Positions 11,605 to 61,619 of a stretch of 64,000 nucleotides of DNA are shown in pieces. Made by a program: the position numbers and the translations under genes. The stretch comes from Viridothelium virens. Lineage: Eukaryota; Ascomycota; Dothideomycetes; Trypetheliales; Trypetheliaceae. The stretch covers positions 1 to 64,000 of the forward strand of contig ML991787.1 of assembly GCA_010094025.1 (NCBI GenBank), in the 5' to 3' direction. A model generated the notes under the pieces. It saw only the letters and a program-made list of their open reading frames with translations. It had not been told where the DNA came from and searched no databases. The stretch's first letter is position 1. Every line of letters starts with the position of its first letter.

Positions 11605-11789
11605 TACCTTACGGCGGCTGGGGGGTTCCTCAACTGGTAATTAATACAATGTTACCTCAGTTTAGCTGTTATGACCATGTTGGCCCATGTTAAGGCGGTG
11701 TTAACATGGACCAACAAGGTCATAACAGTTGAGTCGAAATAACATTGTATTAATTACCAGTTGAGGAACCCCCCAGCCGCCGTAAGGTA
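11605..11789 (+). mobile_element. fold-back MITE, copy 1
   Basis: A 181-bp element between TA dinucleotides (11605-11606 and 11788-11789). The outer arms (CCTTACGGCGGCTGGGGGG...) are inverted copies for about 48 bp. An inner pair of ~28-bp arms begins CTGTTATGACC, is nearly perfectly complementary and surrounds a 7-nt centre (GGCGGTG), so the whole element can fold into one long hairpin. It has no coding capacity. TA target duplication and size suggest a Tc1/mariner-type non-autonomous element; the family assignment is inference. The three other copies in this window keep the same orientation. Confidence 0.9.
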
Positions 11790-14169
11790 GTTTAGAATGC
11801 AGTCCGGTGATACTGCTAGTTCGCACTCTGCCGTGAAGCCAACTATGAGCGCGGTAACGCTGAGCTCTGAATTGTGCCTCTCCATTAGCCTCGGAGATAA
11901 CGGTGGAGACATGCTTATAAGACCAATCCTCTGTCATATGAGTAAGCTTGGTCAGTAATTGACCAAGTCTTTCGTTGGCGTTTGGCGACTTCTCCGGAGC
12001 TTTGAAAACCCATTCGAAAGCAAGCCGCGGAGCCGTCGATAATCAAGAGCCGATGTTCATTGCCGGAAGAGGACATAAACAGCGTGTTCGATAGCTTATG
12101 CTGATGCTATCCATCTGAGTCAGCGGCTTCTAGCAATGGCAGTGTCCAATGAACAGACCTCGCTATTCAGCACACAAGCGTAGCAATCTTTCTAAAGACA
12201 AAGATCAACTCCAAAGCAATCGGCAACCTGGGTGCTCCTGGTTGGACATCGATCCAGAGGCCACTACATTCCACTAATTGTAGCGTACCCTTCAGGAAGA
12301 AATGTGCTTTCGGCATCTGTCAATCTGTAAGGAGGAACGCCGCTTTACCAATGATGCATAGATTCAAGCTCATACAGAGCTCAGCGACCATTGCGTCTGC
12401 ACCTCCAACCTCCTAGGTACGTCAGTAGCGGAAAAGGGCAGCAGACTGAAGATTGACGAACCTTTGGGACTTGGGCAATGATGGACATAACATGAGAGAC
12501 TTCGGTCTTTCCACTCTGTACGGGGCCGTGTGGGGCTTTTGGGGGCTGTCGTAAGTACAATTCTACTAAATGAATTCGCCATGAACCTGCGCCCGAGTAT
12601 AAGATGGAACTTTAGATAGACATTTCGTTCATGGGCTTGCCTCGCTGATGCTCCCCGTCTGAAAGCCACTGCCGTCAGTTGGCCTGCCTTTTGCACGCCG
12701 CCATACTGGAAGCAAAAGCGTACCTGCTCAGAACTGAGTCGAATTATTTGCTCCTAGTGAGGAATTGAATGCATCTTTTCCGCTGCTGACTAAGCTCCAT
12801 GGCCGCTATAGGTACATGTAATAGGCTGGCATTTCGGAGTAGACTTCTTGATATTTTCAACCTTGACTCTGCTGAACCCCTTGATTTTTAGTAGGATGCG
12901 GCGAATGGCAATGTGTACAGACTGTAACGCGAGGCCACAGAAGCAGCCAATCAGCAAGCTTGAGCATTGGGTGACGTGTAAATGGCTCATCAGAAAAGCC
13001 AAGCTGAATACCATTTACCGCGATCTTGTAGTAGCCACTTGCATTCAGCTTACTTGTGTCCATTGCTCCAATACCCGTAGAAGGCCAATCAATATTTCGG
13101 ATCCTGCACGCTAATGACAGGTAAGTGCTTCACCATAAGCTTGTATTGTATCAATGTCGACAATAAACCCTTCTGTGAATGCGGATCTTCATCAGGTCAA
13201 TATACTACCCGGGGCTTCTGGCAGTCCTTACATCATCGCATCCTCCCTATCCACAGAAGCAGGCATGAGAGTTGCATCACCAGAATGTTAGTAGTTTGGG
13301 ACAGACGATAGATCCTTGATTGCGATAGTTGAGAGACCACGAAACGACCACGAGTCTGAGGATCAAGACGTGTCGAGATGAGTGGAATGGCGAATCCGGG
13401 GATTGAAGCACTGAAGGAAGAAGCGATACCGACGCATAGAACCCAGGCACGTGGTTGCCTGATCTTCGCGCAAGAGCATTGTGCTGCGACATGAGGATCT
13501 CGAATCGTGCCTAAACAAGTAAAATGGGGATAGAAGGCAATGACAGGGCTGAAAAGGCAAGGAAATCAGGTAATGTTTCCGAAGCCCATGGACTCATTCG
13601 CAATAGATATGAAAACAGCTACCAGTCTTTTTGTCCATTAATCGACTAAACAGTCTCGCACACGATTACTTCCACGATTCTCACAAAAGTGCCTCATCCG
13701 CTGCTCTTGCCACCACCCACCATCACCGTCAACTGCGACAGACGTTCAATTTCCCTTTCTCTCCTCGTCGAGGTCCCTCTCCATTGGCCGGTATCCAAGT
13801 TCCCCCGTAGCCAAAGACTCTTCGCTCGACAAGACCCGAACGAGGTCGTGTAATTACCAAAAAAGGTGTTTCTGTGTGTATGGTATGGTGTGTAAAATGC
13901 TCCAAATGCCCAGCGATGGATGTCGTGAAAAATGGCGTGGTCGTAAACGTTAAAAGGAGGATATCTCAAACGCCGGAGTAAGTTTGCAGGTCTAAAACGA
14001 CCAGTGAGCGTAGGGTGATGCTAGCAAACAAACGCGACAAATTATTAGCACACAGAAAAGCAAAGACGCGCAAATCCAATGAGAAGTCCGGTGGAGTGGT
14101 GGAGTGCTGAAGTATGTTGCCGTGACATCGCTACACTCCGAAGGTGCCAACGGCTTTACTTGCGTTCAT
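11790..14169. other. gene-free region right of MITE copy 1
   Basis: About 2.4 kb with only short frames on both strands, none with recognisable motifs. The last several hundred bases are probably the 3' untranslated region of the zinc-knuckle gene that ends at 14170. I see nothing else. Confidence 0.45.
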
Positions 14170-15099
14170 CTATGCCACAACCGGAGCGGCAGGTTGCGCC
14201 ACGGCAGCAGGGGCAGCTGGCGCACTCTCGCCGTTGACCTCAGCCTGAGGGCAGTCCCGAGAAATGTGGCCGGCTTCACCACAACGGTAACACGTCTTAC
14301 CAGCCTGGTTCAAGGGCCCGCCGTTGGGCGCAGTACAGTCACGCGAAATGTGGCCGAGTTTTCCACACGCGTAGCATTTCATCGCTTGAGCCTGACAATC
14401 GCGCGCATAGTGATTGGGTCCGCCGCACTTGTAGCATGTCGCTGCACGAGGTCCGGTATATCCTCCACGGAACCCTCCACCATAGCCTCCTCGCATGGAC
14501 GGAACTCCGCGCCCTGCGCCAGGGTTGGGGCAGGCGCGCTTGGAATGGGTTAGTGACATTTCGGAGAGCAGTACCAGGGTTTGCAGATGGCTTACTGCGA
14601 GATGGCCAATTTGACCGCAAGAGTAGCAACGACCACTGGTGCCAGCACCGCTGAGTCTCAACGTTGGGCAGTCTGCTTGAACGTGGCCGAGTCCCTGGCA
14701 GTGATAGCACTGCTTTGCTGTACAATGGTCAGCGCATGACAAATGTGAAGCGCTCTTGGGCTGTTCTTACTCTCCGTAGTGCGGGGGTGCGGGCAGCCAT
14801 TAGATTCGTGTCCTGCTGGGTTGTCAGCGAAAAGCTCCACATAGTTTTCGCGGACGATTCTGTGGCACCTGGTTGTTTGCCTGGAAAAAAAAGAAAAAAA
14901 ATTTGGGTCAGTGACGATTTCCAAACCAACGGATTGAGAAGGTTTCCCACAATTGTAGCAAAGTCTTTCAGACGATGAGCACACCTCTGTCAACTTCCTC
15001 AGCAACAGCGCGCATCCCCCAGCGCTATCAGAAATCCCTACCAGCATAGTGGCCTACATTGCCGCATTTGTAGCAGGCGCGGCGGGAAAGCGACGACAT
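14170..15099 (-). CDS. GIS2/CNBP-like protein with seven CCHC zinc knuckles
   Basis: Six exons: 15099..15042, 14986..14951, 14880..14869, 14812..14771, 14717..14596 and 14538..14170, 212 residues. All joins were fixed by the conserved order of knuckles: CYKCGNVGHYAEVC, CYNCKQPGHESNGC, CYHCQGLGHVQADC, CYSCGQIGHLARAC, CYKCGGPNHYARDC, CYACGKLGHISRDC, CYRCGEAGHISRDC. An RGG-like glycine/arginine segment (RGGYGGGFRGGY) sits between knuckles four and five. The family binds single-stranded nucleic acid and acts in translation control of specific mRNAs (yeast Gis2, human CNBP). The third exon is only 12 nt long and encodes part of the second knuckle. Introns are 53-70 nt. The C-terminus is Ala/Pro-rich. 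Confidence 0.95.
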
Positions 15100-60367: not shown

Positions 60368-61434
60368 CTTGAGAACTAGGAAAGTATGTAGCAATAATTC
60401 AAGCGAAAGACTTGATAGTAAGATTGCAACTATACTACTATAAACAACGAAAGAAATGAGAGAAACAATCCTCTTAAATATACATTTCCTTGAGTGCGGC
60501 GCAGCGCACCTCTGGTCGGATACTTGCAGTTCGAGCCTTGTGGTGGTTTCTCAATTTTCTCGCCCGAATCCTTTACGCCCATGTTGTGCACGAATTTGAT
60601 GGGAGCTCGTATGGCGAGTCTTGAGGGTCTTTGACGGAAGCCTGCAGATTGCTGCTTCACGTTAGCGCCGAATGAATTACACCAAATATTGCAGAGTGGG
60701 TTGCGCAGTGGGTGAAAAGTTCGAAGGACATGGTGGCACAGCTAAGATATGAAACCACCAACAATAGACGCCCAATCCTACCAACAACAGACGCCCGATT
60801 GCCTCGAAAGAACATCTAGCGACGCGAAAGCTGAAGCATCTGGCCAGAAGAGAAGCACAATCAAAAGCGGCGACAAGAAATTTGAGGCAATACTTAGGAT
60901 TAGGGCAAGGAGGACTCTATTTCGGCTACGACTTGGCCCAGAGCGCGGCAGAGACCTAGTAAATACGCGGCTCACACCATTCGAGGGATGAGCTGGCATT
61001 CAGCTTTGAGTTAGCATTGAGTTGTAGAGCATACACAAGTGATAGCCTTGGAGTGCGGCTCGAAGGAAAGCCTAGTCGTGGAATTCATTTTACGCACCAA
61101 CAACTGCACGGTCACAGTCAAGACTCAAGAGAAGTTTCAAGGGCAGAACCTCCGATCAAGGACGTCAAGATTTGAAGGAAGCTGAGGTTGAACTTCTCTC
61201 CAGCCGTCAGCTCGTCCATATCTGGGGAACTGGGCTCTGTATATGACAGCTAGAACTTTGACAATACTGCAGCCACATCATATGGAAAATCAGAGGAGCG
61301 AACCTGAGCAGTCTCTCTCTGATGGACACCTGATATAAAGCTCAGGAAGACCTCAGCTACACTCTTGTACACTCTACGACGAGATGCGAAACAGCTCAGC
61401 ACCTGTAGAGAACAGTCATCAAAACCGCAAAAGC
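60368..61434. other. gene-free region left of MITE copy 4
   Basis: Upstream of the GPI-protein gene. An 80-codon frame at 60749-60991 (plus) has no recognised motif. I make no call. Confidence 0.45.
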
Positions 61435-61619
61435 TACCTTACGGCGGCTGGGGAGTTCCTCAACTGGTAATTAGTACAATGTTACCTCAGTTTAACTGTT
61501 ATGACCATGTTAGCCTATGTTAAGGTGGTGTTAACATGGGCCAACAAGGTCATAACAACAAAGTCAAAATAACATTGTATTAACTACCAGTTGAGGAACC
61601 CCCCAGCCGCCGTAAGGTA
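61435..61619 (+). mobile_element. fold-back MITE, copy 4
   Basis: A 181-bp element between TA dinucleotides, same orientation as the other three. The ends CCTTACGGCGGCTGGGG / CCAGCCGCCGTAAGG are nearly perfect inverted copies, as in copy 1. The centre reads GGTGGTG. Most differences from copy 1 are transitions (C/T or G/A). Confidence 0.9.

Follow-up and report, generated by a model that had tools for sequence, protein, structure and literature searches.

The genome of Viridothelium virens, a lichen-forming Dothideomycete, carries a repeated element of ~185 bp that is probably a non-autonomous, TA-inserting MITE, quasi-palindromic throughout, whose two arms drift with occasional rewriting of one arm from the other. 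The identification as a MITE, already made in an earlier sequence-only reading, was supported by copy number, uniform length, TA ends, the unrelated-looking flanks of different copies, and a comparison within a tandem array interrupted by one copy (L040). In some copies, one half of the fold seems to have been copied onto the other.

The window, i.e., the whole 64,000-nucleotide stretch of DNA that was analysed, contains four copies of the element, listed here with the parts of copy 1.

11605..11789, + strand: MITE copy 1, 185 bp including TA at both ends; 3 substitutions relative to the 29-copy consensus
11605..11693, + strand: left arm of copy 1, 89 nt, 90% complementary to the right arm
11655..11664, + strand: left-type inner block of copy 1, consensus positions 51–60; distinguishes the arms
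11694..11700, + strand: centre of copy 1, 7 nt
11701..11789, + strand: right arm of copy 1
11730..11739, + strand: right-type inner block of copy 1, consensus positions 126–135; strict-register partner of 51–60
39472..39656, + strand: MITE copy 2, 185 bp, TA at both ends
47748..47931, + strand: MITE copy 3, 184 bp; 20 substitutions relative to the consensus, the most diverged of the four
61435..61619, + strand: MITE copy 4, 185 bp, TA at both ends

These four near-palindromes of 184–185 bp were found at exactly the coordinates claimed from the letters alone, and the TA termini and intergenic placement claimed for them held for all four, none of which lay inside an ORF of ≥250 aa or of ≥150 aa. 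They formed the sole direct-repeat family of ≥40 bp reported for the window (seed 14); identity to copy 1 was 94, 88, and 93% for copies 2, 3, and 4, respectively. The same orientation, also claimed, applied to the window copies (all best matched on the + strand) but not to the family: 45 copies with distinguishable arms were split into 23 LR and 22 RL, so that the uniform orientation in the window is not a family trait.

In the 29-copy consensus, the 50 outer terminal bases are perfectly complementary and are followed by a 39-base inner arm and a 7-nt centre, close to the ~48-bp and ~28-bp arms and 7-nt centre described previously; the element thus possesses the terminal inverted repeats characteristic of MITEs. 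When position i is paired strictly with position 186-i, the inner arms mismatch at eight consensus positions (51, 52, 55–57, 60, 73, and 80), six of which fall in 51–60. Each window copy folded into a single full-element hairpin, as had been predicted, with minimum free energies of -142.5, -113.4, -120.9, and -119.6 kcal/mol for copies 1–4; copy 1 with 10 flanking bases per side gave a z-score of -20 against 200 dinucleotide shuffles.

The expectation of many copies genome-wide was confirmed. A 30-base outer-arm pattern matched the genome 307 times at ≤3 mismatches (reversed control, 0), and inner-arm patterns gave 134 left-type and 157 right-type matches (controls, 0). An initial genome search with the element gave 215 candidates, and all 40 that were scored matched at 93–100% (the query's own place included). 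The 200 inner arms listed, less 54 pairs, correspond to at least 146 places, a lower bound since 91 more inner arms were counted beyond those listed; extrapolation from four copies per 64 kb gives ~1,900. All 29 full-length local copies measured 184–189 bp and one further local copy was a 90-bp deletion derivative, so that the family is short, uniform, non-coding, and repeated as MITEs are (~100–500 bp). Differences among the 29 copies were mostly transitions, as noted earlier (187 vs. 98 transversions), and C>T changes at CpA (41/724) compared with other contexts (55/1652) showed at most a weak lean towards RIP.

TA was present at both ends of 25 of the 30 local copies, at one end of four, and at neither end of one. 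Insertions avoid ORFs: only two of these 30 copies lay inside an ATG-ORF of ≥150 aa, whereas ORFs of this kind account for 42% of the sequence in the window plus 20 fetched loci. Flanks of different copies looked unrelated in alignment. At L040, a copy interrupts a short tandem array, which allowed comparison with an empty site in place: the joined flanks differed from the upstream array unit at 4/41 positions when one TA was retained, at 10/39 with no TA, and at 10/43 with two. This favours a duplicated TA, in a single array; an initial array comparison, over 33 positions, separated the three possibilities weakly, with 3 mismatches for one TA, 5 for no TA, and 4 for two. Joined flanks of the 30 copies searched against the window and loci L009–L050 yielded one junction-spanning match (27 bases, E 0.014), which we do not regard as an empty site. 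Base counts hinted at a palindromic preference in the target around the TA, but this was rejected: at none of six positions did pairwise complementarity exceed background (lowest p, 0.059).

The family shares the ends TACCTTAC(G/C)GCGGC. The search for an autonomous transposase with these ends, suggested as a check, found none: within the fetched flanks, several of which stop at contig ends, 0 of 22 transposase matches (15 DDE_1 and 7 DDE_3) had the ends at ≤4/19 mismatches, and the nearest, L019, had 5/19. An end search on other sequence gave three matches against two in the control, one of the three adjoining an inner arm of the family. A candidate 638-bp element delimited by inverted C-state ends at C65:40469 and C65:41106 proved to be two old copies ~280 bp apart. 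PIF/Harbinger (Tourist-like) MITEs feature a three-base TWA duplication and a DDE_Tnp_4 transposase; this class was rejected on the basis of 0 DDE_Tnp_4 matches in the genome and of variable bases adjoining the TA. Since no gene with the family ends was found, we filed the family as a TA MITE and not as a proven Tc1/mariner derivative. In the open-licence papers searched, no transposon-titled paper contained words from the element ends, and nothing emerged on transposons in Trypetheliaceae genomes.

We then compared the two arms. Both inner arms were listed for 54 copies, of which 45 were mixed (one left-type and one right-type arm), eight were right-right, and one was left-left; among these listed copies, the apparent direction was thus right to left in eight and left to right in one (binomial, 0.039). 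Over all 25 positions, variants were common to both arms in 2/105 cases in the mixed copies and in 8/13 in the right-right copies (Fisher, 7e-8). Because the six arm-distinguishing positions could depress sharing in mixed copies, the comparison was rerun without them; the contrast was smaller but remained (2/83 vs. 5/8; Fisher, 2.4e-5), and sharing was seen in two of 45 mixed copies and four of eight right-right copies. When right-type partners were assigned at random, shared variants averaged 0.8 and none of 5000 draws reached eight (maximum, six). Three of the shared right-right variants occupy positions that distinguish the arms, and two, CG>CA at 55 and G at 61, are also found on several right-type arms elsewhere.

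Paired complementary changes pointed in the same direction. Since bulges shift pairs out of register in RNAfold pairing, an earlier count on that basis (20 paired changes vs. 0–5 in twelve shifted registers) was redone in strict register, which gave 19 paired changes in 29 copies, or 12 without site 9; offsets of 1 to 10 in either direction gave a mean of 1.5 and a maximum of four. With site 9 omitted as a likely subfamily mark, swapping right halves between copies produced a mean of 4.2 paired changes against the 12 observed, and 4/2000 swaps reached 12 (maximum, 15). In the outer arms, for which 80 of 100 matches listed were used, 17 paired elements were found at 0–1 mismatch; 14 carried a variant, which was the same on both arms in two.

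Four homogenised copies were read at full length: L052, L053, L035_3538, and the old copy L051a. L052 differs from the consensus at 10 positions, six of which represent the entire 51–60 block in right-arm letters. The arms of L035_3538 are identical at positions 33–78 and show eight mismatches among the other 43 positions (position 80 left out); the chance of an identical run of such length was 0.018. Both tracts (51–60 in L052 and 33–78 in L035_3538) are clustered changes by which one arm comes to complement its partner within a short stretch, as template switching would leave. The left-left copy L053 has an altered right end and is right-type on both arms at positions 73 and 80; given the changed right end, exchange between copies could have produced its left-left state. 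Taken together, the arm data fit short-tract copying from arm to arm (hairpin template switching or conversion) rather than selection on an RNA.

Selection maintaining the hairpin as a structured RNA or small-RNA precursor is very improbable. All 33 folded copies do form one hairpin (median minimum free energy, -123.9 kcal/mol), as this explanation would have it, but one-sided changes exceeded paired changes by 183 to 19 in 29 copies, so that compensatory changes preserving pairing across most copies were not seen and the conserved RNA that would have spoken against a mobile element did not materialise. Furthermore, mixed copies share few variants (the 2/105 above), an Rfam search gave no match at the elements, and per-site divergence was of the same order in arm segments (0.036–0.069) and loop (0.049). 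An ordinary MITE that inherited all its paired arm changes from several palindromic sources, with no copying after insertion, is a more serious alternative, albeit an unlikely one. Site 9 does behave as two subfamilies: among the matches listed, 28 exact-ended copies comprised 21 G-type, five C-type, and two mixed by hand count, and copy 3 of the window has the C-state on both arms. Exact patterns searched genome-wide showed the site 31 variant on both arms in one of seven carrying elements and no pairing at site 23 in seven matches; the site 23 change stands on both arms in L044 and L051a, with a second change nearby. As genome-wide replicates, sites 31 and 23 thus add little. Paired changes at site 9, and perhaps at site 31, may be inherited subfamily differences. 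Apart from site 9, paired changes reside mostly in diverged copies (L035_3538, L042_5070, L042_3679, L047_1307, L043, and window copy 3), and the right-right set includes old ones (L035_3538 and L051a). Against inheritance, the shared variants differ among right-right copies, with only CG>CA at 55 common to two, and L052 is otherwise just four substitutions from the mixed-arm consensus. Even in a palindromic source, paired changes could arise only through copying between its arms; inheritance therefore shifts the event to an earlier time without removing it.

Slightly less likely still is an assembly artefact, in which reverse-complemented reads of one arm were assigned to the other, creating the right-right and left-left copies. 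Near-perfect palindromes present in >100 copies are difficult for short-read assembly. However, 263,998 bases contained no N, contigs extended up to 1.03 Mb, distinct arms were kept in 45 of the 54 copies, and the tract borders of L052 and L035_3538 are not alike.

On the favoured reading of arm-to-arm rewriting, the family would have been mobilised in trans, through its shared ends, by a Tc1/mariner-type transposase, the source element being lost or unrecognised in the assembly. After insertion the two arms would mostly diverge, and occasionally a stretch of one would be rewritten from the other (≤26 bp in L052 and ≤46 bp in L035_3538). The simplest route would be template switching within the hairpin or short-tract conversion between arms, restoring pairing locally; we infer an event within the element because the variants concerned occur on the two arms of a single copy and are rare or absent among other right-type arms. 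More broadly, we tentatively propose that palindromic MITEs mend their own symmetry by hairpin-templated synthesis with a right-to-left bias, such that full-length palindromes would be kept without RNA selection and each copy would record the events since its insertion. If so, about one in six listed copies (9/54) shows a visible event in this single 10-bp block. We know of no protein that requires the middle of a MITE, and the persistence of palindromes is an old question, addressed by hairpin amplification models. With arms that can be told apart by type at one block, and with >100 copies, the family would make it possible to count arm-to-arm copying directly against mixed copies as an internal control, so that hairpin template switching in a filamentous fungus could be measured in natural replicates. 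Should the family alone prove real, it would be a routine entry for fungal TE libraries.

As a family, the element is ordinary: nearly palindromic TA MITEs are already known (Submariner is one), and the family adds another. It shares TA insertion, terminal inverted repeats, high copy number, and lack of coding capacity with the Tc1/mariner-type mimp and Stowaway MITEs of fungi and plants, the ends of which are unlike those of the V. virens family; the whole-length fold also sets the latter apart. Submariner_Ps1 of Pandoravirus salinus (243-bp consensus, terminal inverted repeats of ~100 bp, TA target duplication, and 30 copies) is likewise short, non-coding, and nearly palindromic, but differs in host and length (PMC4495683). 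A related transposon has been reported for it in Acanthamoeba castellanii (PMC10664404), whereas none was found for the V. virens family. In Galileo of Drosophila mojavensis, terminal inverted repeats within one copy are 98–100% identical, for which conversion between them was proposed; these repeats are ~0.9–1.26 kb and occur in chimeric copies with unmatched 7-bp flanks, in contrast to the short tracts within 89-bp arms described here (PMC3573991). Concerted inverted repeats in Nematomorpha mitochondria carry complementary substitutions on both arms, with template switching as a possible cause, but are coding and mitochondrial, whereas the V. virens family is a transposon (PMC6649704). A parallel to the process proposed here comes from yeast, in which templates are switched between imperfect inverted repeats: one arm templates the other and leaves clustered changes and arms identical over a short tract (PMC8604942). 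The yeast case concerns short repeats in single genes; in V. virens the element itself is repeated and has two types of arm, and events can therefore be counted over many copies.

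The sequence-only reading had placed four elements in the window at 11605-11789, 39472-39656, 47748-47931 and 61435-61619. These were confirmed, each with TA at both ends, and they constituted the sole direct-repeat family of at least 40 bp reported in the window (seed 14). The consensus derived from 29 copies was 185 bp including the two TAs and 181 bp without them, with perfectly paired outer arms of 50 bases, inner arms of 39 bases each that differed at 8 positions, and a centre of 7 nt. All 33 folded copies, the four window copies included, formed a single hairpin, showing that the fold-back description was right in substance.

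Viridothelium virens is a lichen-forming fungus of the Trypetheliaceae (Dothideomycetes), and its assembly of 30.72 Mb in 175 contigs was searched for further copies. A DNA search yielded 215 first-look candidates, and 40 of 40 scored candidates matched at 93-100%, including the query's own place. A 30-base outer-arm pattern gave 307 matches at up to 3 mismatches (reversed control, 0), and inner-arm patterns gave 134 left-type and 157 right-type matches (controls, 0). The best-matching 100 of each type marked at least 146 places (54 arm pairs and 92 single arms), such that the density of four per 64 kb was overstated for the genome as a whole; likewise, the uniform orientation did not extend genome-wide, as the 45 listed copies with one arm of each type divided 23 to 22 between opposite orientations. 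The window appears locally rich (four copies per 64 kb versus 146 listed places per 30.7 Mb); contigs C11, C16, and C34 also carried many copies, and large contig C2 few, among the matches listed. One fetched locus (L042) held three copies inside ~3.5 kb, and the copy at 2393-2482 of locus L048 was an internal-deletion derivative retaining both ends. At locus L051 30-667 (G000:C65:40469-41106), two old copies lay ~280 bp apart, with a 91-codon open frame between them (L051 209-484) that is perhaps a gene fragment. Divergence from the consensus ranged from 1.6 to 13.0% (median 4.9%; n=29 copies). A weak RIP-like trace was seen in 29 local copies as a lean of C>T changes towards CpA (41/724 versus 55/1652 elsewhere).

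Of 30 local copies, 25 had TA at both ends, four at a single end, and one at neither end, and the flanks of different copies looked unrelated in alignment. Two of the 30 copies lay inside ATG-initiated ORFs of at least 150 aa, which made up 42% of the window and 20 fetched loci. At ~4930-5220 of locus L040, an element splits the third of three imperfect tandem units of ~33-35 bp each; its flanks joined with one TA differed from the upstream unit at 4 of 41 positions, versus 10 of 39 without TA and 10 of 43 with two TAs, in a single in-place case within one assembly rather than between strains. An autonomous transposase gene sharing the family ends, as suggested from the initial reading, was looked for in the assembly, through the DDE_1, DDE_3, and DDE_Tnp_4 families and through the ends themselves, and not found; thus, TA and TIRs by themselves point to a Tc1/mariner-type transposase presumably acting in trans. 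Other features of the window and loci were as follows.

Other features of the window and fetched loci
G000:C18:388185-391718 (L013), DDE_1 transposon with 40-43 nt inverted repeats ~2.1 kb apart, each repeat holding internally repeated motifs
G000:C9:530267-533224 (L015), DDE_1 transposon with 40-43 nt inverted repeats ~2.1 kb apart, each repeat holding internally repeated motifs
Window 29837-29930, minus strand, C/D-box snoRNA Afu_335 (Rfam RF01513), scoring 79 bits where the gathering score is 50

We take both DDE_1 transposons to be of Fot1/pogo type. The 533-aa frame of L013 was uninterrupted, and stops occurred in 12 of 14 other DDE_1 matches.

The left and right inner arms differed in letters at consensus positions 51, 52, 55, 56, 57, 60, 73, and 80. 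Both types were kept at most of these positions in 29 of 31 tabulated full-length copies, the exceptions being L052 and L053; among tabulated copies, L035_3538 was right-type at seven. The 54 copies with both inner arms listed comprised 45 mixed, 8 right-right, and 1 left-left. Across 25 positions, variants of mixed copies were identical on both arms in 2 cases and not in 103, versus 8 and 5 in right-right copies (Fisher 7e-8); with the six distinguishing positions removed, the contrast was somewhat weaker (2 and 81 versus 5 and 3; Fisher 2.4e-5). Homogenisation thus tends to run in tracts, and the other arm of the same copy is the likeliest template. The both-arm variants at C30:203605 (site 59), C85:31670 (site 58), and C40:16026 (site 64) were absent from the other paired right-type arms listed; the site 58 variant recurred on the right arm of L044, a copy outside the listed arms, and other shared variants recurred more widely.

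The four homogenised copies read over their whole length were L052, L053, L035_3538, and L051a, an old copy. The plainest case, L052, carried 4 ordinary substitutions and one block in which 6 positions had turned to right-arm letters, flanked on both sides by arm mismatches at 45 and 72. L035_3538 was 12% diverged, yet its arms were identical over 33-78 (chance of such a run, 0.018), with 8 mismatches in 43 positions outside it (position 80 excluded). The right end of L053, the left-left copy, was altered, and this copy may be chimeric. If right-right arms were older than mixed arms, L052 by itself would need no copying; however, copies carrying their own paired variants need copying even then. 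Homogenised arms could in principle also be created by the assembler. In 29 sequences counted in strict register, complementary changes at paired positions numbered 12 with site 9 left out, against a mean of 4.2 after right halves had been swapped between copies (4 of 2000 swaps reached 12). Site 9 looks like a marker of two subfamilies, with at least 21 G, 5 C, and 2 mixed among the 28 exact-ended copies listed. The behaviour of the family is not that of a selected RNA, because most changes break pairs and go unanswered on the opposite arm.

In kind, this is an ordinary family of TA MITEs, and among the systems compared, Submariner_Ps1 (PMC4495683) is nearest in anatomy. The arm copying proposed here corresponds to what the yeast work (PMC8604942) names template switching between imperfect inverted repeats. 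Conversion between TIRs is proposed for Galileo (PMC3573991), and concerted inverted-repeat arms are described for nematomorph mitochondria (PMC6649704). What this family adds to known systems is replication: a mixed-arm marker across many copies, with mixed copies serving as the control.
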